NCBI GenBank assembly: GCA_002862305.1
Contig: PKCS01000069.1
Span: forward strand, 1-49,632
Source of the DNA: Phycisphaerae bacterium
GTDB taxonomy: Bacteria; Planctomycetota; Phycisphaerae; Phycisphaerales; SM1A02
DNA: 49,632 nucleotides
Direction of reading: 5' to 3'
Part shown: piece after piece, positions 5,156 to 38,244 of the stretch
Layout: every line of letters starts with the position of its first letter
How positions within the stretch are numbered: position 1 is the first letter of the stretch
Notes under the pieces: model-generated
Told to the model about the DNA's origin: nothing
What the model saw: only the letters and a program-made list of their open reading frames with translations
Databases searched by the model: none
Program-made: the position numbers and the translations under genes

Positions 5156-7404
5156 GCGCCGTGCTCCTCGATGAGTCCCGCCAGGCTGGCACGCCACCGG
5201 CCGAGCTGGTGCCCGGCCTGTTCCGCATCCTCGAGTTCGGGGGGATCCTCGGTGAAGGTGCGGTCGATCGCCTGCTGGATGCGTCGTTCGCCCGCGCCCT
5301 GCATCGCCAGCACCACCGTGAGCAGTGCCGCCGCGGACACCGCCTCGCCGCGCAGCCTCGCGGGCGGATCGTCCTCCGGGAGGCTGTCCTCCGAATCCGG
5401 CTTTCGTCCCCCGCCGAGCAGTGCGAGCACCCCGCCACCGGCCGCTCCAGCGGCCAGCCAGCCCGGAAGGGCCGCGAGCGCGGCCGGTGCCAGGGTCCCC
5501 GCGGTGGCCAGGCACGCCAGGATGCCCGCCGCACCACCGATCGCGACCCACCGGCTCGATCGAGTCAGGCGATCCGGCATCACCGAGGTGATCGCCTCCA
5601 CCGCCTGCTGGAACCCCTCCCGCGGATGCTCCACCAGCCTCGTCGGTTCCGGCAGTCCCGCCAGCCCCCCGGTCGCTCGTGCGCCGGCGCAGCTGGCGAC
5701 CGCGCGATGAAGCGCGACGAGATCGCTGGCCTCGGGCACCGTCGGCCACTTCCTGACGTGGGCCGCGATCTCGGCGAACGCCGTGTCCACCACCCCCATG
5801 ATCCCCCGGTCCCCGGGCAGTTCCGGACGCCCCTTGCCGGCGATCAGTTCATTCAGCCGTGCTCGACTCACCGCGGTCAGACGATCGAGGTCGAGTTCGG
5901 TGACGGTGCCCCTCGTCTGGAGTTCCCCGACCATCAACTTCCAGTCGGATACGCGCTGTTCGAGGACCCGTGCGTCGCACCGCCTGCGGAACCGATCTCC
6001 CCCGGTGAGCACCACGTTCAGGATCGAGTCCCCCGTCACCTCGTGGAACCTCCGCATGGTCCTGGCCATCCCCCGGTCAGGGGTGGTCGCGAGGTCCACC
6101 ACGATCACCAGTCGACTCGGTGAATGTTCCGCGAGTGCGACCCGCCTGACGACCGCGGCGCGATCCTCGCGACTGGACACGATCCCCAGGTCGGTCACCG
6201 TCGCATCGCAGGGGGGTGGCCAACCGCATTCCGGGGTCTCGAGCTCGATGCCCACGATCGCGGAGCCCCGTGCGGTCCGTTCCGGATCCGCGAGTTCCCC
6301 GGCCGCGGCATCGCCTTGCTGGACTCCGGGATCCGGGATCGTCTCCACCGCGACCGGCCGGGGTTCCGCGAGCGCCCGCAGGGGCGCGAAGTTGGGCGAA
6401 TCGACGTCGGGTCGCCAGCGCCGGACGGCCCGCTTCCAGAGCAGCACCGAGAGCACCAGCAGCAGGCAGCGGGGGAGCAGTCCGTAGAGGATGAGGCACC
6501 CGATGATCAGTCCGCTGAACGCACGTCGTGCGTCCGCGCTCGAGGCATTCGATCCCGAGGCTTCGATCCTCGCCGAAGCGAACTCCGCCTCGCTGGGCAC
6601 CTTGAACCCGATCGCCTCCGGCAGCCTCGAGATCGCCTCCCCGACCTGCTTGAACGCGGCTTCGGATCCGATCGTGGTCTCCCACCCGAAGTCCACCTGC
6701 CTGATCGAGAGGATCACCACCAGGCCACCCAGCAGGCCGATGTTGAAGAACGTCCAGCCCAGGTGGGTGATGGTCCCCAGGGCCCAGCGGGTCCTCGGGC
6801 CACCGAAATCCACGTGCGTCACCGCGGCACTCGCCGCCTCCACGCGTTCCCTTCGTTCGTCCCCACCCCGTCGCGGGCCGGACCCGAGCTGCCCGGCGAT
6901 GATCCGCGCGATTCCCGCGATCGCTCCCCCCAGCGAGCAGCGGCCCAGCAGGCGTCCGCCGAGGATGGCGAGGAGGATCCAGAGCACCAGCAGCAGGGAC
7001 TGTCCCCCCAGCACCGCACCCAGGATCCAGAACAGGTTCACCGGTCGCCCCGCGGGGGCCTCGAGGATTCCGGCCGCGGTGAGGGTGCCGAGGACCGCCG
7101 CGGCCACCATCGCGACGAGGCAGATCAGGGCCGTTTCCCAGTGCCGGATCCCGGACATGATCCCTCGAAGCGCCGCGGACTCCGGCTGCGCCGCGGCCAC
7201 CTCGTCCAGTCGTTGCTGGAGTGATCCCGTTTCCACCCCGGGGACGTCGCCCCGGAGGGTCTCCCGGGTCCCCCGGACCTGGATCAGGTTGGCCATGGCC
7301 AGCGCCAGAAGCCCCGACGGCTGCAGTGCGCGTGCGACGGTACGCACCGGCTCACCGGTCGGCGGGGCAACGGTCTCGCTGGAGGAGTCGTCCTTTTCGG
7401 GCAT
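5152..7404 (-). CDS. DUF2868 membrane protein, partner of the downstream GTPase
   Basis: This 750-aa protein has hydrophobic segments at about 92-112, 124-149, 215-234 and 297-323. The sequence THLGWTFFNIGLLGG around 213-227 is characteristic of DUF2868. A soluble region of ~280 residues follows (330-610), then another long hydrophobic stretch at about 615-660. Family knowledge: DUF2868 proteins are multipass membrane proteins co-encoded with a DUF3482-type GTPase, and their function is unknown. Its stop overlaps the GTPase start by four bases. tatA lies 85 bp upstream on the same strand, so the three may share a transcript. Confidence 0.78.
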   Translation of the reverse strand: MPEKDDSSSETVAPPTGEPVRTVARALQPSGLLALAMANLIQVRGTRETLRGDVPGVETGSLQQRLDEVAAAQPESAALRGIMSGIRHWETALICLVAMVAAAVLGTLTAAGILEAPAGRPVNLFWILGAVLGGQSLLLVLWILLAILGGRLLGRCSLGGAIAGIARIIAGQLGSGPRRGGDERRERVEAASAAVTHVDFGGPRTRWALGTITHLGWTFFNIGLLGGLVVILSIRQVDFGWETTIGSEAAFKQVGEAISRLPEAIGFKVPSEAEFASARIEASGSNASSADARRAFSGLIIGCLILYGLLPRCLLLVLSVLLWKRAVRRWRPDVDSPNFAPLRALAEPRPVAVETIPDPGVQQGDAAAGELADPERTARGSAIVGIELETPECGWPPPCDATVTDLGIVSSREDRAAVVRRVALAEHSPSRLVIVVDLATTPDRGMARTMRRFHEVTGDSILNVVLTGGDRFRRRCDARVLEQRVSDWKLMVGELQTRGTVTELDLDRLTAVSRARLNELIAGKGRPELPGDRGIMGVVDTAFAEIAAHVRKWPTVPEASDLVALHRAVASCAGARATGGLAGLPEPTRLVEHPREGFQQAVEAITSVMPDRLTRSSRWVAIGGAAGILACLATAGTLAPAALAALPGWLAAGAAGGGVLALLGGGRKPDSEDSLPEDDPPARLRGEAVSAAALLTVVLAMQGAGERRIQQAIDRTFTEDPPELEDAEQAGHQLGRWRASLAGLIEEHGA

Positions 7405-7489
7405 CGCTTCCCTCGCCGCCCCCGCTCAGGTTTCTCAGCACGATCACGATTCCGCCTCCCACCACGGGAGTCGGTCCGCAGGGCCCGGC

Positions 7490-7810
7490 TCAGTGATCCT
7501 TGGCGGGTTCCTCGTTCGCACGGTCGTACATCGCCGACCGAGCGCTGTCGGTGGTGTCCTGGGTCAGTTCCCGGGACGAGGCACCCTTCGAGTTCGAGGC
7601 CTCCTGGTCGATGTCGTCCTCGATCCCCTTGATGCCCTTCTTGAACTCGACGATCGACTTGCCGACCGAACGACCGACTTCGGGAAGTCGCCGGCCGAAG
7701 ACCAGGAGCCCGATCGCGAGCAGCGCTATCCACTCCCAGCCGCTCGGCATCCCGAAGGCGAGGACCGGACTGGTGAGGCTTTCCAGCGACATGAAGGTTG
7801 ACGGTGTCAT
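7490..7810 (-). CDS. tatA: Sec-independent (twin-arginine) translocase subunit TatA/TatE
   Basis: This 106-aa protein would form the protein-conducting part of the Tat pathway, which exports folded proteins. One transmembrane helix (WEWIALLAIGLLVFG) is followed by the family motif FGRRLPEVGRSVG, an amphipathic helix rich in Lys (VEFKKGIKGIEDD) and a polar tail. The ATG at 7810 is preferred because GAAGGA lies about 7 nt upstream. The frame extends to 7876, but a TACACT -10 lies directly before that ATG, so the longer form would not be transcribed. No tatC is visible here. The DUF1501 protein at 22.1 kb carries a twin-Arg leader and is a possible client. Confidence 0.9.
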   Translation of the reverse strand: MTPSTFMSLESLTSPVLAFGMPSGWEWIALLAIGLLVFGRRLPEVGRSVGKSIVEFKKGIKGIEDDIDQEASNSKGASSRELTQDTTDSARSAMYDRANEEPAKDH

Positions 7811-7876
7811 GCACGAGTCCTTCAGGGATTGGGGGTGACTTTCCGGAACCGGATCCCGTTGGTCGGGTCCTGTCAT

Positions 7877-7882
7877 AGTGTA
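7877..7882 (-). promoter_or_regulatory. -10 element TACACT for tatA
   Basis: TACACT lies on the minus strand, about 67 nt upstream of the tatA ATG at 7810, leaving a leader of about 60 nt. It is the same hexamer as at the two tRNA promoters. No convincing -35. Confidence 0.4.
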
Positions 7883-7939
7883 GCGGCCGGGAGCCCTCCG
7901 GAAGACATCCTTCCGAATTGTGCCGTGACCGCTCGTTCC

Positions 7940-7970
7940 TTGCAGGGAATCGGCCTCCCGAACCGATTAT
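7940..7970 (+). promoter_or_regulatory. Possible mltA promoter
   Basis: TTGCAG (7940-7945), a 19-nt spacer and GATTAT (7965-7970), about 55 nt before the mltA ATG. A short inverted repeat CCGAA-N7-TTCGG overlaps the -10. The spacer is long, so this is tentative. Confidence 0.3.
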
Positions 7971-8025
7971 TCGGACTGGAAGTTGCTCCCCGACCCGTCC
8001 GCCCCCGGCTCCAGAAAGGCGTTCC

Positions 8026-9270
8026 ATGACCGAACCCGCGAACACCATCCTCACCCGCGTCGGCCTCGCCTGCTGCCTGCTGGCCGTGGTGGGGTGCACG
8101 TCGTCCCCCAGGACCGCCAAGCCCGAGTACCACCGTCCCCTGGAGCCCGGCGAGCAGTCGCTGCGCAAGGTCTCGCCGGACGCGGTCCGCATGGACCTCG
8201 TGACCGCCTACCGGAATCGGGAGTCCGGACTCCTGGTCGCCCTCGACGAGAGTGCGCGATGGTACGAGGCACCCTCCAGCGAGCGTCGCTTCCCCTTCGA
8301 GACCCGGGACGGGACGGTCAGCCACGACCTCGCCCGGGCCAGCGTCCTCGCCTTCAAGCAGACCCTCGAGGAATCGTCGAGCGGCGAGGTCTTCGCCCGG
8401 GACATCCTCAGGAGCTTCGACGTCTACCAGACCGTGGGCTGGGACTCCCGGGGCACGGTCCTCTTCACCGGGTACTACGCCCCGATCTTCAAGGGAAGCC
8501 TGGAACGGACCCCGCGATTCGCCCACCCCCTGCACACCCGGCCGGAGTGGTTGCTGACCACGACCGAGGGCATCCCGTTCGGACGCCGGCTTCCCGACGG
8601 TCGGATCGCGGACTCGCCGGATCGCGCGGAACTCGAGGATTCGGGGATGCTCGACGGCAGCGAGCTGGTCTGGCTGGAGAGCAAGCTCGACGCCTACATC
8701 TGCCAGGTGAACGGTTCCGCCTGCATCGAGCTGCCGGACGGTTCCCGGATGTACGTGGGGTACGCGGGCAAGACCGAGCATCCCTACACCGGCCTCGGTG
8801 CCTCGATGCTGGCCGAGGGGATCATGACCAAGGACGGGCTGAGCCTGGACGCCATCGAGTCCTACAACCTCGAGCACCCCGAGGTCGTGGAGCGCCTGAT
8901 CGACCGGAACCGGAACTACGTCTTCTTCAAGGAATACGACGGCGCCGGGTGGCCTGCCGGTTCCCTCGGGGTGCCGGTGACCGAGCGAGCCTCGATCGCC
9001 ACCGACAAGACCATCTACCCCCCGGGGGCGGTGGCGCTGGTGGACACCAGGGTGGTGGACGGTGCGGGTGGCAAGGCCGAATTCGTGCAACTGGTCTGCG
9101 ACCAGGACACCGGTGGCGCAATCGTGGCCCCCGGACGCTGCGACCTCTTCATGGGCATCGGTCCCGATGCCCGCACCCTCGCCGGGGGGCAGTACGCGGA
9201 AGGCACGATGTACTACTTCTTCCTGAAGCCGCGGCTGGTCGCCGGGCACGGGGGCGTGGATCCCGGGTGA
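8026..9270 (+). CDS. mltA: Membrane-bound lytic murein transglycosylase A
   Basis: This 414-aa lipoprotein should cleave the MurNAc-GlcNAc bond of peptidoglycan with formation of 1,6-anhydro-MurNAc. The ATG at 8026 is preceded by AAAGG at a suitable distance and starts a lipoprotein signal with lipobox VVGC (lipidated C24). The MltA barrel domain covers roughly 130-290 (FTGYYAPIFKGS, GYAGKTEHPYTGLG). The C-terminal 3D domain has its three aspartates around DTGGAIVAPGRCDLF (D361, D373). The length fits the family. It is divergent from tatA. Confidence 0.92.
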   Translation: MTEPANTILTRVGLACCLLAVVGCTSSPRTAKPEYHRPLEPGEQSLRKVSPDAVRMDLVTAYRNRESGLLVALDESARWYEAPSSERRFPFETRDGTVSHDLARASVLAFKQTLEESSSGEVFARDILRSFDVYQTVGWDSRGTVLFTGYYAPIFKGSLERTPRFAHPLHTRPEWLLTTTEGIPFGRRLPDGRIADSPDRAELEDSGMLDGSELVWLESKLDAYICQVNGSACIELPDGSRMYVGYAGKTEHPYTGLGASMLAEGIMTKDGLSLDAIESYNLEHPEVVERLIDRNRNYVFFKEYDGAGWPAGSLGVPVTERASIATDKTIYPPGAVALVDTRVVDGAGGKAEFVQLVCDQDTGGAIVAPGRCDLFMGIGPDARTLAGGQYAEGTMYYFFLKPRLVAGHGGVDPG

Positions 9271-27486: not shown

Positions 27487-27894
27487 GACCGGGCCGAACT
27501 TCCACGCCTTCCGGTCCGGCCTGCACGCTCCGGCCCGGCCCGGTTCATCCCGGCTCGAGAGCGGTCGGTCCGGGCGATGCACCTGCAGGTGACTGGTTTG
27601 AGGCTGAATTGGTGTCCTGGGATCCCTGAAGGATGCAGACCCCCGCCTTGAGCTCAGGAAGGGCGCTCCGTCCCCCGTTGACGACCCTCACGGCCTTCTT
27701 TCCCGAGCCGCGGAACCCTCCTCAAATCCTCTGAATCCACGGGTTCAGGCGACTTTTGACTTCTCCCGTATCCACCCCGGGGTATTCTTAGGGAACTCAA
27801 ATCCCCCACGATCCGTAGACGATACCGATCGGACTTCGAACGCCTCCCGTGGCCCCCCCCGGGTGACCTCACCATCCCCAGCTGGAATCAAAGC
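27487..27894. other. 408-bp intergenic region upstream of the GSDH gene
   Basis: No gene supported. It holds a weak hairpin CTGAATC/GGTTCAG (27731-27748), a TTGACT at 27756-27761 and a TATTCT at 27783-27788. The last two are 21 bp apart, too far for a normal promoter, although TATTCT alone could be a -10 with a leader of about 100 nt. Confidence 0.4.
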
Positions 27895-29283
27895 ATGAAC
27901 TACAAGAACCTTCTTCTGGCGACCACCCTCTCCGCGCTGGTCACCGGTTCCCTCGGCGCCCAGAACGTACAGATCGACACCACCCGCGTGGCCAGCGGGC
28001 TGAACTACCCGGTGGTGGTCCAGCACGCGCCCGGGGACGCCGATCGACTGTTCATCAGCGAGAAGCGGGGGAGGATCAAGATCCTCGACCTCACCACGAA
28101 CCAGGTGCTTCCCACTCCCTTCCTCGACATCGACAACCTCATCGCCGGGGCGACGTCCCTCAGCGACGAACGAGGCCTCCTCGGCATCGCGTTCCACCCC
28201 GACTTCGCGTCCAATGGCTACTACTTCGTCTACTACACGAACAGCAGCAGCGACACCAGGGTCGTGCGATACACCGTCTCGAGCAGCAACCCCAACCTGA
28301 CCAACTACTCGTCGGCCAAGACGATCCTCTCGATCAACCAGCCCTACTCGAACCACAACGGTGGCGCCATCGAGTTCGACTGCGACGGCTACCTCCTCAT
28401 CGCCACCGGCGATGGTGGTCTCTACAACGACCCCGGCAATCGTTCACAGGACGTCACCAACCAGCTGCTGGGCAAGATCCTGCGCCTGGACATCGACGTG
28501 CCCGACTCCGTCCCCTACGGGATTCCCCAGGACAACCCCTTCGTCGGCGGGACCGGTGACGACGAGATCCTCCACTACGGGCTTCGCAATCCCTGGAAGA
28601 TCGACGTCGACCCCGTGACCTGCGAGATCTACATAGGCGACGTCGGCCAGAACGCCCGCGAGGAGATCAACGTCGCCGCCCCCCTCGAGCGCGGCCTGAA
28701 CTACGGCTGGCGCTGCATGGAGGGCAATGGAAACACCGGGCTCTCGGGTTGCACGGCCTTCAGTCCCACGCTCGTTGATCCCGTCTTCGAATACAACCAG
28801 TCCGGTTCCACCGGCTACAGCGTGACCGGCGGCGTGGTCTACCGCGGATGCGCCATCCCGGAGCTCGACGGCACCTACTTCTTCGCGGACTACGCGACGG
28901 GGAACATCTGGAGCTTCGTCTACAACGGCGCGGGCGGCTACACCGGCTACCAGAACCGAAACGAGCTCGAGACCTCCCTCGAGGGATACGGCGTCGACAA
29001 CATCGCCTCCTTCGGCAAGGATGCGAACGGCGAGGTCTACATCGTCGACCAGAACGGTGGGGAGATCTTCAAGATCGTCAAGGCAAGCGGCGATGCGCCC
29101 TGCTTCGCCTACCCGATCGGCGACATCAACCAGGACTGCCTGGTCAACGGCCAGGACCTCGCCCAGGTCCTTGCCAACTGGAACTCCACCAGCCATCCCA
29201 ACATCGACCTCAACAACGATGGAATCGTCAACGGATCGGATCTCTCCTTCATCCTGTCCTACTGGAACAGGACCTGCGATTGA
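27895..29283 (+). CDS. Secreted PQQ-type glucose/sorbosone dehydrogenase-like protein with dockerin-like tail
   Basis: This 462-aa protein starts with a signal peptide (NLLLATTLSALVTGSLGA). A six-bladed beta-propeller of the GSDH family follows, with DERGLLGIAFHPDF, NHNGGAIEFDCDGYLLIATGDGG, GLRNPWKIDVDP and IGDVGQNAREEIN, the typical soluble aldose dehydrogenase blocks. Members oxidise aldose sugars with pyrroloquinoline quinone, but many homologues have no proven activity. The tail (about 412-462) is a pair of dockerin-like calcium loops (GDINQDCLVNGQDL, DLNNDGIVNGSDL), as in the GH16 protein of this window. The ribosome site is weak (GGAATC). A strong hairpin follows the stop. Confidence 0.87.
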   Translation: MNYKNLLLATTLSALVTGSLGAQNVQIDTTRVASGLNYPVVVQHAPGDADRLFISEKRGRIKILDLTTNQVLPTPFLDIDNLIAGATSLSDERGLLGIAFHPDFASNGYYFVYYTNSSSDTRVVRYTVSSSNPNLTNYSSAKTILSINQPYSNHNGGAIEFDCDGYLLIATGDGGLYNDPGNRSQDVTNQLLGKILRLDIDVPDSVPYGIPQDNPFVGGTGDDEILHYGLRNPWKIDVDPVTCEIYIGDVGQNAREEINVAAPLERGLNYGWRCMEGNGNTGLSGCTAFSPTLVDPVFEYNQSGSTGYSVTGGVVYRGCAIPELDGTYFFADYATGNIWSFVYNGAGGYTGYQNRNELETSLEGYGVDNIASFGKDANGEVYIVDQNGGEIFKIVKASGDAPCFAYPIGDINQDCLVNGQDLAQVLANWNSTSHPNIDLNNDGIVNGSDLSFILSYWNRTCD

Positions 29284-32469: not shown

Positions 32470-33195
32470 ATGCCCGAACCGCCCTCCGAACCGCCCCTCG
32501 TCCACCTCGCGATCGAAACCTCCCAGCGGGAGGGAGGTATCGCGCTGCAACTCGACGACGGGCGGGTTCTCGAGCGGACCTTCCCCTGCGGTGGTCGCGA
32601 AACGGACCTGCTGGTCCCCTCGATCGACGCCCTCGTGGAGGAGGGTGGGATCGCGCCGTCCCGACTCGAGCTGGTCTCCGTCTCGATCGGGCCGGGAAGC
32701 TTCACCGGCCTGCGCATCGCGGTCAGCACGGCGAAGGCCCTCGCCCGGGGAACGGGGTGCGCCCTCGTCCCGGTACCGAGCGCCTGGGTCGTGGCCGAGC
32801 GGTGGTTCCACGATTCAGGTGACCGAGGATCGGTACTCGTGGCCAGCGCCGCCAAGGGAACGGCTTGCTGGCTCACCCGACTTGATCGTTCGGACGACGG
32901 CCTGGTCCAGGCCCGGCCAGCCGGCCTCTTCACCGTGCAGCCCCCCACGGAAGAGGTCATGACGCTCTGTGACGGGGCATGGATCCTCGCCGACGACCAC
33001 GCGCCGGAAGGCTTCCTCGAGGCCTGCTCGGGGCATTCGCGCGGGCATGACCAGCCAGGGCCATCAGCCCGGGCCTGCCTGGCCGCGGGGCAGCAGGTTC
33101 TTGCCCGGACCGGTCCGGTCCCGGCCGCACGGCTCGAGCCCCTCTACCCCCGCGAGCCCGAGGCGGTCACGCTCTGGCGGAAGCGCCATTCCTGA
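32470..33195 (+). CDS. tsaB: tRNA threonylcarbamoyladenosine biosynthesis protein TsaB
   Basis: A 241-aa protein of the ASKHA fold. With TsaD and TsaE it transfers threonylcarbamoyl to A37 of ANN-decoding tRNAs. The N-terminal LAIETSQREGGIAL, the motif SIGPGSFTGLRIAVSTAKALA, and the C-terminal LEPLYPREPEAV are the family landmarks. Length is normal. It lies 15 bp after the DUF1573 gene, probably one transcript. No tsaD or tsaE in the window. Confidence 0.92.
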   Translation: MPEPPSEPPLVHLAIETSQREGGIALQLDDGRVLERTFPCGGRETDLLVPSIDALVEEGGIAPSRLELVSVSIGPGSFTGLRIAVSTAKALARGTGCALVPVPSAWVVAERWFHDSGDRGSVLVASAAKGTACWLTRLDRSDDGLVQARPAGLFTVQPPTEEVMTLCDGAWILADDHAPEGFLEACSGHSRGHDQPGPSARACLAAGQQVLARTGPVPAARLEPLYPREPEAVTLWRKRHS

Positions 33196-33304
33196 GCGTT
33201 TTCCCGGGAAGCTCCCAGAAGGCGCCAAACCCGACCCCCGGTCCTGACGATAGGCAGGATCAACGAGGTGGTGGGTCGGGATGCCCGTCGCTCCGATAAC
33301 CGGA

Positions 33305-33330
33305 AATGCCCGTGGCATTGATCATGCCAT
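33305..33330 (+). promoter_or_regulatory. Overlapping inverted repeats with a sigma-54-like GG-N10-GC
   Basis: ATGCC, GGCAT and ATGCC alternate, so two palindromes overlap (ATGCC-CGT-GGCAT and GGCAT-TGATC-ATGCC). TGGCATTGATCATGC also fits the sigma-54 spacing (GG at 33314-33315, GC at 33326-33327), about 30 nt before the kinase-like gene start. Either an operator or a sigma-54 promoter. Confidence 0.3.
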
Positions 33331-33356
33331 CGGGACGCTCGGGAGTACCAGGACGA

Positions 33357-35543
33357 ATGCCACACGCGGACTCCGTGAATCCTCCGGACACGATCGCCCG
33401 CCTCCTCGATCGGCTCGATCAACTGCCTTCCCCGAGTGCGGTGGCCACCCGCCTCATCACCCTGCTGGACGATGAATCGGCTTCCTCGCGTGACGTCATC
33501 GACCTCGTGTCGACGGACCCCGCGCTGTCTGCGAAGGTCGTGAGCATGTGTGCCCGATCGCCCCGCGGGCGATCACTCGGGATCTCCAGCCTTGATCGTG
33601 CGGTGGTGCTGCTCGGTTTCGACGCCGTCCGCTCCGCTGCGCTCTCGGTGCGACTCTTCGAGACGGTGGGGGGGTTTCCTCATGGCGAGCCGCCCGGTCG
33701 ATCGAACCCCGCCTTCGACCACGACATGTTCTGGCGTCACTGTCTCGCCGTCGGGATCCTCTCGGATCGCATCGCGAGGCTGGTCAGGAAGCCCGCCCCC
33801 GCGAACGCGTTCCTCGCAGGACTCCTGCACGACATCGGTCACCTGGGACTTCACGCCGTGGCCCCCGACGTCTTCGCATCCCTCTGCGAGATGGCCGAGG
33901 CCCAGTGCACCTCGGTCGATCGCGTCGCTGCCCGGAACCTCGGCCTCGACGGGCGAACCGCTGGTACCCGGATCGCTCGCAGCTGGGGCCTGCCCGCCCC
34001 CCTGGTGGAGGTCATCGAACTCGTCGACCAGCCGCTGGATTCGATCTGGTCCTCCCGGTACCCGCTCCTGGTCGCGACCGTCTCCCTCGCCGACGCCCTG
34101 GTGGCACGCGACCAGGTCTCGATCGCGGGTCACGGGCTCCGGCTCTCCAGCATCAAGGGCCTCTGCTCCCGCCTGGAGCTTTCCCTCGACGACCTCCTTC
34201 GGATGCGGTCACCGGTGCTCGCCGAGGTCGAGTCCCGCGCCGTCGAACTTGGCCTGGAGCCACGACCCACCCCCGATCTCCTACTTGATTCCGTTGCCAG
34301 GGCCAATCGATCGGTGGGCCGGTTCGCGGCCGCCTACCGCGACCAGATCACCGAGAACCAGCGCTGCCAGGCCAGTCTCCACAGGCTCAACCACTTCCTG
34401 GCCAGAGGGGACCACGACACCCTCCAATCCGCGGTCGCCGCGGTCGCCGCATCCGCCTGCTCGATCATCGCCGGGTCGTCCGCCTGCGTGATCACCCCCG
34501 GCACCTCCGCCGGCGACGACCCCCAGATCACCTTCTGCGACGCGGACGACGCGACGTCCGTCGAGTTCCGCGCGGGCATGCCGGCGGACATCGCCCGGGA
34601 CGTCCTGTCCCGGAACCGTCTCGAGCGATGCGGCGAACCTATTCGGCTGCCCATGCCGGGCGGGGAGTTCGCGGTGCTCGCGCTCGGTCTGCCCGTTGGA
34701 AGCGGTTCCCCGGACTTCGTGCCCGACCCCGTCCTCGCGGGGGCATGGTCCAGTACCCTGTCCAGTGCACTCCTCCGGGAACGGAGCCACGAACTCGCGG
34801 CGCGCCTGGACCGCGCCGACCGGGCCCTGGCCTCCCAGCGAGACTACATGTCGAGTGCCCGGGCGGCCTCAGCCGTCGCATCCCTCGCCGCCGGCGTCGC
34901 CCGACAGATCGACCACCCGCTCTCCGTGATCCGGGAACGCACTGAATTGCTCCGGTCCTGCCTCGGTTCGACCGAACTCGAGCAGTCGGTCGAGGCGATC
35001 CACGACGCCTCCCGCCGGGCGATGGAGATCATCCGCGTCCTCACCGAGGCCGTCTCCCCGATCGACGTCAAGGCCGCTGCGGTCGACGTGGGCACGCTGC
35101 TCGCGCAGGCCTGCGACGTGGTGTCGCAACGGGCGGGGAATCGCGTCTTCGTCACCGCAGGGTCCGGGCCCGTGGTCGCCCACCTCGATCCCGACCTGCT
35201 GAAAAGGGTCCTGGTGGAGGCCATCGAGAACGCCCTCCAGTCCAGCCATGATTCCTCGATCATGCTCTCGTGGCAGTGGGAGCAGGCGAATCTCCAGGTC
35301 ACTGTCGCCGACAGCGGGCCGGGATTCAGTGCCGAGGCACTCGAGAAGGCCTTCGATCCCTTCTATTCAGGCAATCCGGCCCCGGGTCGAACCGGCCTCG
35401 GGCTTTCCGAGGCGCGCCGACTCGTCGAGGCCCACGGGGGTCGGGTCTCGGTCGCGAACCGCCAGGGCTGGAACCGGGGTGGACGGCTCCTGATCGAGCT
35501 CCCGGACGCCCGGGTTGCCGCGGGCAAAAAGGTCCTGGTGTAG
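33357..35543 (+). CDS. HDOD / GAF-like / histidine-kinase-like signalling protein lacking the phosphoacceptor His
   Basis: A 728-aa soluble protein. Residues ~15-250 form an HDOD domain with LLHDIGHLGLH. Residues ~320-480 look GAF-like and end in a coiled coil (ELAARLDRADRALASQRDYM). Residues ~505-565 match a HisKA dimerisation helix, SLAAGVARQIDHPLSV, where the usual A-G-V-A-H-E-I-N-N-P reads R516 instead of His; a His appears four residues later (H520). The ATPase domain looks intact: N box ENALQS (N625), G1 DSGPGF, F box FDPFY and G2 GRTGLGLS. So ATP binding is likely but classical autophosphorylation is doubtful. The ATG at 33357 (AGGA/GGGAG upstream) is preferred over 33306. The partner gene at 35618 is probably co-transcribed. 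Confidence 0.82.
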   Translation: MPHADSVNPPDTIARLLDRLDQLPSPSAVATRLITLLDDESASSRDVIDLVSTDPALSAKVVSMCARSPRGRSLGISSLDRAVVLLGFDAVRSAALSVRLFETVGGFPHGEPPGRSNPAFDHDMFWRHCLAVGILSDRIARLVRKPAPANAFLAGLLHDIGHLGLHAVAPDVFASLCEMAEAQCTSVDRVAARNLGLDGRTAGTRIARSWGLPAPLVEVIELVDQPLDSIWSSRYPLLVATVSLADALVARDQVSIAGHGLRLSSIKGLCSRLELSLDDLLRMRSPVLAEVESRAVELGLEPRPTPDLLLDSVARANRSVGRFAAAYRDQITENQRCQASLHRLNHFLARGDHDTLQSAVAAVAASACSIIAGSSACVITPGTSAGDDPQITFCDADDATSVEFRAGMPADIARDVLSRNRLERCGEPIRLPMPGGEFAVLALGLPVGSGSPDFVPDPVLAGAWSSTLSSALLRERSHELAARLDRADRALASQRDYMSSARAASAVASLAAGVARQIDHPLSVIRERTELLRSCLGSTELEQSVEAIHDASRRAMEIIRVLTEAVSPIDVKAAAVDVGTLLAQACDVVSQRAGNRVFVTAGSGPVVAHLDPDLLKRVLVEAIENALQSSHDSSIMLSWQWEQANLQVTVADSGPGFSAEALEKAFDPFYSGNPAPGRTGLGLSEARRLVEAHGGRVSVANRQGWNRGGRLLIELPDARVAAGKKVLV

Positions 35544-35556
35544 GACCTTTTGCCCG
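35521..35556 (+). other. Strong hairpin across the kinase-like gene stop codon
   Basis: The left arm 35521-35536 and right arm 35542-35556 pair over 15 bp with one bulged A and the loop GGTGT. The TAG stop (35541-35543) lies at the loop edge. No T-run follows, so it is more likely a processing, stability or attenuation element between the two signalling genes than a simple terminator. Confidence 0.6.
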
Positions 35557-35617
35557 AGTTGAGTGAAAGCGCGCTCCGATCGTGCCGATGACCCTGCAGT
35601 CATCTCTGGAGGATCGA

Positions 35618-36727
35618 ATGAACGACAATTATCCGGACATCCCGAACGAGCCCGACTCCCGCGGCAGCGACGTGCTCCTGATCCACGAAGGGACGCGATC
35701 CGCCTGCTCGGAAATGGCTTGGCGCCACCTCGAGGAGATGGGCGTCGAGTGCGGTTCCTGCGAGCAGCTCGAGTCGCGGATCATCGACGGTGGGACCGGC
35801 CTGGTCATCATCGACTGCTCGAGTCGTGCGGTCGCGGACACCGACCGGATCCGGACTCTTCGGCCCGGCCTCCCGGTCCTGGCCCTCGTCGACGAATCGT
35901 CGATGGAGTCCCTCCAGGACCTGCTCGCCGCCGGCGTGACCGACGTGCACTTCCTCGAATCCGGCGTGGAGACCCTTGGACGGCGCGTGGGTTCCCTGGT
36001 CGGTTCCGTGCACGGCACCGACCGCGACTCCATGGTCGAGCGCTCCCTCGAGATTCTTCGCGGACTGTGCTCCACCAACTCCGCGCTCTCGGAACGGGTC
36101 ACCGACCTGGAGTCCGAACTCGCGGAAGTCGAATCCGATGTGGCCTCCCAGGTCGAGATCGCCACCGTCGTCTCGTCCTTCAAGGCACTCCTCTCCCAGG
36201 AGCTTGGGGTGGAGGGCGTGCTCCAGACCGCGCTCGAGTTCATCCTCGGCCGGACCGGACCCACCAACGCCGCGATCTTCCTCGCCGACTCCGAGACCAG
36301 CTACTCCCTCGGCGCCTACGTCAACTGCGACTGCCCCCGGGAGAAGGCGGATCCCGTGCTCTGCAAGTTCACGACCGACGTCTGCCACCACGTGGCCGCG
36401 CCCGACGATCTGGTGCGCTTCGAGGACATCGACTCGTTCATCCAGGCGGTGGGACCCGAGGCGGAGATCCTCAGGTCCTCCGAGGTCATCGGGATGCCTT
36501 GTTCCTCCGACGGGGAGTGCCTCGCGGTGGTGTTCCTCTTCAGGTCCGAATCCGATCCGTTCCCCGAGCAGCTCGCTCCGGTGCTCGATGCGGTGCGGGT
36601 GACTCTCGCCGAGCAGCTTGCCACGATCGTCAGCATCCACCACCGGATCGAGGATCACTGGCCCGACGAGCCGACCGACGAGGCTTCGGACTGGGGATTC
36701 GGCACGGGGGGCAACAAGGCGGCCTGA
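35618..36727 (+). CDS. Receiver-like / coiled-coil / GAF-like protein with Cys-His cluster
   Basis: A 369-aa soluble protein with GGAGG 6 nt before the ATG. Residues 17-130 have the alternating pattern of a response-regulator receiver. Asp66 (GLVIIDC) is at the phosphorylation position, but the acidic pair reads H23-E24 and the conserved Lys is absent, so it is degenerate. A coiled coil (about 155-190) leads to a GAF-like domain (190-345) containing C237, C239, C249, C256, H257 and H258, a possible metal or Fe-S site. No output domain follows. I recognise the folds but no named family. It sits 74 bp after the HDOD kinase-like gene and converges with psd. A role as partner or sensor for that protein is inference. 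Confidence 0.75.
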   Translation: MNDNYPDIPNEPDSRGSDVLLIHEGTRSACSEMAWRHLEEMGVECGSCEQLESRIIDGGTGLVIIDCSSRAVADTDRIRTLRPGLPVLALVDESSMESLQDLLAAGVTDVHFLESGVETLGRRVGSLVGSVHGTDRDSMVERSLEILRGLCSTNSALSERVTDLESELAEVESDVASQVEIATVVSSFKALLSQELGVEGVLQTALEFILGRTGPTNAAIFLADSETSYSLGAYVNCDCPREKADPVLCKFTTDVCHHVAAPDDLVRFEDIDSFIQAVGPEAEILRSSEVIGMPCSSDGECLAVVFLFRSESDPFPEQLAPVLDAVRVTLAEQLATIVSIHHRIEDHWPDEPTDEASDWGFGTGGNKAA

Positions 36728-37437: not shown

Positions 37438-38244
37438 TCATTCCGTGGCGCGACCGACCACGAAGCCGACCACCAGGAGTGCGAGCAGGAGCCCGATCAT
37501 CACGCTGACTCCGACGATGGACACGAACCACGCCGCGATCCCGCTGCCACCGGACCCGATCACCGCGGTCGCCATGATGGCCACGACGATCAGTGCCACG
37601 CAGGCCGCGATCATGCCGCCGAGCGCCATCCCGCTTCCCGCGCCGTCGTACTCCTCGACGATCATCGGGACGTTCATCGGGGTGTTCCCGATCGCGGCCG
37701 CCACGTCCTGGGCGCTTCCCTCGTCCTCCATCCGGCGGAAGATGCCGCTGGCGCTGGAGGGGAGGTCGACGGGGTCGTCGTCCTCGAAGGACTGGTTCAT
37801 GAGGGCCGCCCCGGCCATCGAATCATCCGATTCCCTGGTCAGGTCCATCATCTTGCTGCCGGAGTCCATGCCGGTGTCGAATCCGAAGTCGTCATCGCCA
37901 TCCAGCTTGGGGCTCTCCTGGGCGAGTGCGGTATCGAATGCGCTGATGCCCGTCGCCTCGTTGGAGTCCGCGAGGCCGATCGCGCTGCCGCTGGCACTCG
38001 CGTCGTCGAGCTCGATCACCGGATCGAACGAGTCCTCGAGGTTGATGGGATCGCCCACGACGGAATCGTCGAGGCCGATGCTGGGGGCGTCGAGGATGAT
38101 CTGGAGCTGGTCCGCCTTGATCATCACCTCACCCTCCTGCTTGAACTCCTGCAACTTCCCGTCCTGGATCATCTGCTTGACATCATCGACGGACTGTCCC
38201 AGCTGCTCAGCTGCTTCTTCCATCGTGAGGAACATCTTCGACAT
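37438..38244 (-). CDS. Membrane-anchored protein with excisionase/MerR-like HTH
   Basis: A 268-aa protein. The first ~50 residues (MFLTMEEAAEQLGQSVDDVKQ... then GKLQEFKQEGEVMIKADQL) are a winged HTH like excisionase or helix-turn-helix 17 domains. Residues 55-190 are acidic and low in order (many Asp, Ser, Gly). Two hydrophobic helices (about 205-228 and 236-262) close the protein. Such HTH-linker-membrane proteins recur in Phycisphaerae, but I know of no assigned role; membrane-tethered DNA binding or a protein-protein adaptor are both possible. AGGAG lies 8 nt before the ATG. psd follows after 25 bp. Confidence 0.75.
   Translation of the reverse strand: MSKMFLTMEEAAEQLGQSVDDVKQMIQDGKLQEFKQEGEVMIKADQLQIILDAPSIGLDDSVVGDPINLEDSFDPVIELDDASASGSAIGLADSNEATGISAFDTALAQESPKLDGDDDFGFDTGMDSGSKMMDLTRESDDSMAGAALMNQSFEDDDPVDLPSSASGIFRRMEDEGSAQDVAAAIGNTPMNVPMIVEEYDGAGSGMALGGMIAACVALIVVAIMATAVIGSGGSGIAAWFVSIVGVSVMIGLLLALLVVGFVVGRATE

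Follow-up and report, generated by a model that had tools for sequence, protein, structure and literature searches.

A two-component operon of Phycisphaerae that has probably lost its regulator and, in the remaining kinase, its phosphotransfer site

The contig PKCS01000069.1 of a Phycisphaerae bacterium (assembly GCA_002862305.1, SM1A02 lineage of Planctomycetota), analysed here over its whole length of 49,632 nucleotides (hereafter "the window"), carries two adjacent genes. Gene A encodes an HDOD domain joined to a histidine kinase core, and gene B a degenerate receiver joined to a GAF domain. The phosphoacceptor histidine of A is replaced by an arginine (Arg516) in the window, a third gene (R), which lies next to A in most relatives, was sought in the window genome without success, and on the window branch the kinase half of A, unlike the HDOD half, evolves faster than in the sister. 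We consider it probable that the pair is a three-gene two-component operon minus its regulator, in which phosphotransfer is decaying and the HDOD and GAF modules are retained. The components are of kinds already known; it is their arrangement that is unusual.

Gene A is an unbroken open reading frame (ORF), the stop codon of which ends at position 35543. Its parts, including the dimerisation and histidine phosphotransfer (DHp) and the catalytic and ATP-binding (CA) regions, are the following.

33357 to 35543, + strand: gene A, HDOD, linker and His-less HisKA/HATPase core; 728 aa from the ATG at 33357, 745 aa from an alternative ATG at 33306
33423 to 34034, + strand: HDOD domain of A (PF08668), residues 23-226, Pfam stretch
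34845 to 35063, + strand: DHp region of A, residues 497-569, with the degenerate H-box ARQIDHPL
34902 to 34904, + strand: codon CGA of Arg516, in the column of the phosphoacceptor histidine
35064 to 35504, + strand: CA (HATPase) region of A, residues 570-716; N, G1 and G2 boxes retained, ATP lid altered

The N-terminal domain is a clear member of the HDOD family (Pfam E-value 9.6e-39, 133.3 bits against a curated cut-off of 22.9). Its HD-type residues His128, His158, Asp159 and Asp246 are all present, as they are in 95, 99, 90 and 71 of the 104 other aligned rows, respectively. Many HDOD domains lack these residues; because A retains them, its HDOD may be an HD-type hydrolase. Pfam also detects HATPase_c (2.3e-19) and, below threshold, HisKA (19.2 bits, cut-off 26.9). 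The H-box reads SLAAGVARQIDHPL. In the family alignment, from the columns of which all H-box residues were taken, Arg516 occupies the acceptor column and Gln517 replaces the following glutamate. His520 falls in the +4 column, which holds the second asparagine of HEMNNP in the relatives; this rejects it as a hidden canonical acceptor. The E/DxxT/N phosphatase motif, which follows the histidine in HisKA kinases according to PMC11502775, reads QxxH in the window and has gone along with the acceptor. The first-pass annotation of this DNA had placed Arg516, His520, Asn625, DSGPGF and GRTGLGLS correctly, and had called the ATPase domain intact-looking. This is accurate for the N, G1 and G2 boxes (N625; D652, G654 and G656 in DSGPGF; G680 and G682 in GRTGLGLS), but conserved residues of the ATP lid are altered (H664K, G676P, R677G). 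With a non-histidine acceptor site and retained CA boxes, the window A has the sequence features of a DivL-type pseudo-histidine kinase, and it seems impossible that A could carry out classical phosphotransfer in this genome.

The window A was searched in 61, 181 and 400 genomes, overlapping sets of which the last is an even draw from a larger group; 186 of those 400 contained matches. A subset of the matches was fetched: one locus from each of 103 other genomes and, in addition, a paralogue (L074), which was excluded from the locus list. One locus (L034) ends before the H-box. Since all 102 readable relatives retain His-Glu at positions 516-517, against Arg-Gln in the window, the loss of the acceptor histidine is lineage-specific. 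The presence of a normal histidine at 516 in all of them is an outcome that the earlier annotation had itself named as refuting its proposal, and a conserved switch that works without phosphotransfer is not supported. Two points of the proposal survive, namely that a classical phosphorelay through A looks impossible in this genome and that the two genes are linked. The excluded paralogue (5658-8126, minus strand, G054 contig 2) is a divergent second HDOD-kinase with Asp-Ser in the His-Glu columns, and is thus another His-less HDOD-kinase; B was not found beside it.

The linkage of A and B, which had been put forward as a check, is conserved. In all 97 relatives whose contig continues, B lies downstream of A and in the same orientation: 95 were identified by script, one has both genes in a single open frame, and L217 was settled from its coordinates. 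The contigs of the other six of the 103 run out. A further 80 loci from a scan of genome contigs, overlapping the fetched genomes, served for linkage and not for the H-box counts. Eleven of these were without B by the threshold applied: ten have weak matches (47-118 bits) that may be the receiver of R, and in L101 B shares an ORF with A. An apparent A-B gene fusion, a single open frame in L191, was rejected after comparison with L190 and L192 showed a frame shift at the end of A. Another locus from the genus of the window genome (L038, G004 contig 31) has frame breaks in R, A and B, and its H-box reads AHEINTPL; poor assembly is the probable cause, another decaying copy a possible one. In near relatives the block sits between tsaB and psd. 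Adjoining psd, the window encodes at 37438-38244 (minus strand) a protein with a below-threshold HTH_17 match, conserved beside the locus in near relatives.

R is a protein with a helix-turn-helix (HTH) domain and a receiver (HTH_17, 9.5e-09; Response_reg, 9.6e-24, in the sister locus L031), located between tsaB and A in near relatives, and is the likely response regulator of the operon. In 95 of the 103 relatives it directly precedes A on the same strand, 94 times as an ORF and once frameshifted (L038). The contig scan gave a similar picture, with R upstream in 74 of the 80 loci, a contig edge in two and repeats of fetched cases in three (two from family f4 and the one from L038). In the window genome (G000), A comes directly after tsaB. 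No operon-type R, and hence no cognate response regulator of the kind a HisKA kinase requires, was found in this draft genome, where the best HTH-receiver match is a paralogue on contig 50 (150.8 bits) and the others are generic receivers. The contig-50 protein (L098, 112-672), which has DAD / D / T / K instead of DDD / D / S / K, was considered as a relocated R and rejected: of the 40 relatives searched, most have an orthologue of it (51-79% identity), usually together with a further copy of the operon type at about 29-39%. It is therefore another paralogue.

The R receiver reads DDDSK in 93 of the 94 loci with A and EDDSK in the remaining one, with no degenerate case. Twelve fetched loci have B but no full A; R is present in five of these, and its receiver is degenerate in three (L076, L078 and L081), a difference from the loci with A that is significant by Fisher's test when shared ancestry is left uncorrected (6.4e-5). 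A is probably the kinase of R, judging from this pattern. In one of the A-less loci (L079, 4996-5600, plus strand, G036), short overlapping frames resembling the start of A and its HATPase domain lie between a canonical R and B, and are evidently a remnant of A.

The site where R would be expected in the window can be delimited as follows.

32470 to 33195, + strand: tsaB-like gene (PF00814, 2.3e-14), in the same place in near relatives; upstream landmark
33196 to 33356, + strand: gap between tsaB and A, 161 bp; site where the relatives carry R
33226 to 33252, + strand: promoter-like motif CWAA-N18-CGATA, common to five near relatives and there upstream of R

Compared by BLASTN with the R-bearing stretch in five near relatives, the 161-bp gap gave no significant match. 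The promoter-like motif is found upstream of R in G001, G002, G003, G010 and G110, and with the same spacing before A in the window. It may resemble a sigma-28 promoter. It occurs three times in the 2.67-Mb window genome, the reversed-pattern control giving zero, and twice in the real window against a mean of 0.02 in shuffled windows. It was defined post hoc, an earlier CYAA pattern having missed the site, and G004 (L038) from the same genus has no exact match. The position of the shared motif, now before A, points to a loss of R from the interval between promoter and A. The second exact copy in the window is located at 27798-27824 (plus strand), 70 bp before an ORF starting at 27895, and could signal a small regulon.

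The changes in A are not spread evenly over the protein. Three-point branch lengths were obtained for the window branch and that of its sister L031. They are 0.28 and 0.24 for the HDOD domain, and 0.14 and 0.15 for the GAF part of B, the 95% interval of the difference including zero in both cases. In the kinase half, the corresponding values are 0.56 and 0.22 for DHp, 0.67 and 0.28 for CA, and 0.63 and 0.26 for the two regions together, a rate about 2.4 times higher on the window branch. The branch length of the B pseudoreceiver (2.08 and 0.88) is saturated and was left unused. Changes were also counted at the sites where 95% or more of 91 background homologues agree (L074, L034, L038 and L202 being excluded). 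The window A has changed 8 of 14 such sites in DHp (G508A, A514V, H516R, E517Q, N519D, N520H, G527E and Q530E); for HDOD, the linker and CA, the numbers are 3 of 25, 2 of 7 and 3 of 18. The sister has changed 2 of 14 in DHp and, in the other three regions, 2 of 25, 2 of 7 and 1 of 18, and the other eight near relatives at most 5 of 14 in DHp. The excess of changed sites in DHp over HDOD plus CA is significant for the window (Fisher, 0.0026) and not for the sister (0.59). Because eight conserved DHp sites have changed, a single sequencing error cannot account for the H-box.

Gene B, located 3' of A, consists of the following parts.

35618 to 36727, + strand: gene B, degenerate receiver, coiled coil and GAF; 369 aa, alternative start GTG at 35582
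35666 to 36007, + strand: degenerate receiver of B, residues 17-130; HE / D66 / V / L replace DD / D / T / K
36197 to 36652, + strand: GAF part of B, residues 194-345; best conserved part of the family

The window B taken alone has no Pfam match to a receiver, and a weak one to GAF_2 (0.056, below cut-off). Among 42 aligned B proteins, the window included, Response_reg is detected at an E-value of 0.01 or better in 35 and GAF (PF01590) in 18, the window B being in neither group. In its AlphaFold2 model (mean pLDDT 86.4), the receiver-like half is followed by a long helix and a GAF fold. Foldseek matches to the model (e.g. 3eea, TMt 0.80) identify the latter as GAF, and the receiver is recognised through the homologues and the predicted fold. 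As the earlier annotation had observed, the protein has His23-Glu24 at the acidic pair, keeps Asp66 and is without the receiver lysine. It is thus no phosphorylatable receiver, which would combine the acidic pair, Asp, Thr/Ser and Lys, nor, with Asp66 retained, an aspartate-less one.

B was found in 53 of the 61 genomes searched. The full DD-D-T-K site is present in five of the 53 aligned rows, all from family f5; the aspartate is present in 21 and absent in 32, one of the latter (L086) being without any receiver. Most of the columns conserved in the family sit in the C-terminal GAF part. Judging from this distribution, the degeneration of the receiver is old, and is found in many genomes whose A retains its histidine. 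A coupling of receiver decay in B to the histidine loss in A was therefore rejected. The same observation speaks against the reading in which both partners were altered together: in most relatives with the histidine in A the receiver of B is degenerate already, so the alterations of A and of B differ in age and distribution. In L077, L080 and L082-L086, B is retained near tsaB although neither A nor R was found next to it; B thus survives longer than the two-component parts.

We propose the following course of events. A and B would be the remainder of an operon, present across this order of Planctomycetota, that comprises R (HTH_17 and a canonical receiver), A (an HDOD histidine kinase) and B (pseudoreceiver-GAF). 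It is most likely that the A of the relatives phosphorylates itself at His516 and that the phosphate goes on to R, which would then bind DNA. B would be a linked partner whose receiver no longer accepts phosphate in most lineages. It probably works by binding, its GAF domain to a small ligand and its receiver half to the docking face of the kinase, the DHp region of A, in the way receivers dock on kinases. R, situated between the operon promoter and A, would have been lost in the window lineage. Without a phosphorylation target, the constraint on the kinase half of A would have dropped, since nothing was left to phosphorylate, and the acceptor histidine, the next glutamate, the asparagine of the phosphatase motif and residues of the ATP lid would then have been replaced. 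A and B probably still function through HDOD and GAF without phosphotransfer, because these two parts evolve at the rate of the sister. A conformational role for the remaining pair is possible. The loss of R is a simpler explanation of the histidine loss than a switch free of phosphotransfer.

Several observations weigh against this account. The window genome is a draft in 103 contigs with a completeness of 96.57%, and R could lie in a missing piece. R is located elsewhere in the genome in six f4 relatives (332-337 bits) and in L167 of the contig scan (322.7 bits), and is thus not always beside A; in L049 and L225, with a contig edge upstream, there is no strong genome match (166.5 and 163.6 bits), which leaves 2 of the 103 relatives unsettled. 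The linker of A is accelerated too (0.42 against 0.23 in the sister). L067, with both histidine and R retained, has changed 5 of the 14 DHp sites, so that drift in DHp alone is no proof of a loss of function. Two of the five A-less loci with R (L075 and L079) keep a canonical R receiver. Finally, the joint loss of R and the histidine is a single event (histidine lost in the one genome without R and in none of 100 with R; Fisher, 0.0099, ancestry uncorrected), because of which the order and cause of the losses are unproved.

Other readings were weighed on the same evidence. A may have been repurposed as a pseudokinase like DivL, selection keeping its His-less core as a module for docking and for ATP-dependent conformational change, through which B or another receiver is read. 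This comes near the idea of the first annotation. The retained N, G1 and G2 residues and the unbroken 728-codon frame speak for it, as do the presence of DivL (4q20) among the Foldseek matches of the A model and the precedent of DivL itself (PMC4211667). We nevertheless regard it as unlikely: the kinase half is the fast-evolving part of the protein, with conserved lid residues altered, and no second species in the same state occurs among the 102 readable relatives. It is likewise improbable that the whole of A is decaying toward loss, merely undisrupted so far, with B alone of importance. Such decay would agree with the twelve fetched genomes that retain B without a full A, one of them with a remnant, and with the acceleration of both kinase half and linker, but the HDOD domain evolves at the rate of the sister and the frame is unbroken. 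We give very little credit to His520 as a replacement phosphoacceptor in a kinase that still works; although this histidine is available one helical turn away, it sits in the asparagine column of E/DxxT/N, the glutamate is lost too, the lid is altered, and the search of the window genome yielded no operon-type R to take the phosphate. An assembly artefact that dropped R and garbled the H-box, conceivable in a fragmented and incomplete draft, is hardly credible given that tsaB and A are 161 bp apart on one 49.6-kb contig, with the shared promoter-like motif in place and several separate H-box substitutions within an unbroken frame.

Within the preferred account, the dismantled operon, we offer one further idea tentatively, as somewhat doubtful. 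After the loss of the regulator, the HDOD half of A and the GAF half of B may have stayed fully constrained as a phosphotransfer-free pair, signalling through HDOD activity or binding together with ligand sensing by GAF, and with the kinase core as a dimerisation scaffold. B might then be the central component of an undescribed system spread over the order, whose two-component parts are removable in either sequence.

These loci would provide a natural series for the disassembly of a two-component system. Where the kinase is gone, the receiver of the regulator tends to decay; where the regulator is gone, the H-box and ATP lid of the kinase decay first and the sensory domains hold. They also point to an order-wide operon of which the best conserved part is the GAF protein. 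The case also calls for caution: what looks like a "degenerate pair" in a single genome can be a leftover of local extent and need not be a conserved mechanism.

We found no description of an operon of the type HTH-receiver, HDOD-kinase and pseudoreceiver-GAF in searches of an open-licence library, as judged by titles and abstracts. Its parts can be compared with known systems. A resembles the HisKA kinases of the NtrB/ZraS/AtoS type: ZraS is both its best NCBIfam profile (96 bits, cut-off 479) and its best Foldseek match (9jfj), and its relatives have a canonical H-box. In contrast to these kinases, A has HDOD as input, and in the window A the H-box has lost its acceptor His along with the Glu and the Asn. 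With DivL of Caulobacter, A shares the absence of histidine at the acceptor site and the retained N and G boxes, and PMC4211667 presents DivL as a His-less kinase able to act as a reader of receivers. The tyrosine of DivL, however, is conserved through its homologues in the same text, whereas the arginine of A is found in one species, and A has altered lid residues and an HDOD input. A catalytically inactive ChrS evolved in the laboratory conferred more heme tolerance than a chrS deletion, according to PMC9491836. B is similar to aspartate-less and other degenerate receivers in being without the acidic pair and the lysine; receivers without Asp make up about 4% of receivers according to PMC4395418. 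It differs from them in that the window B retains Asp66 and in its output, which is GAF and not a DNA-binding domain. Among HDOD proteins, the solved structures 3hc1 and 3m1t match the model of A, but the HDOD of A is joined to a kinase core and retains the HD-type residues.

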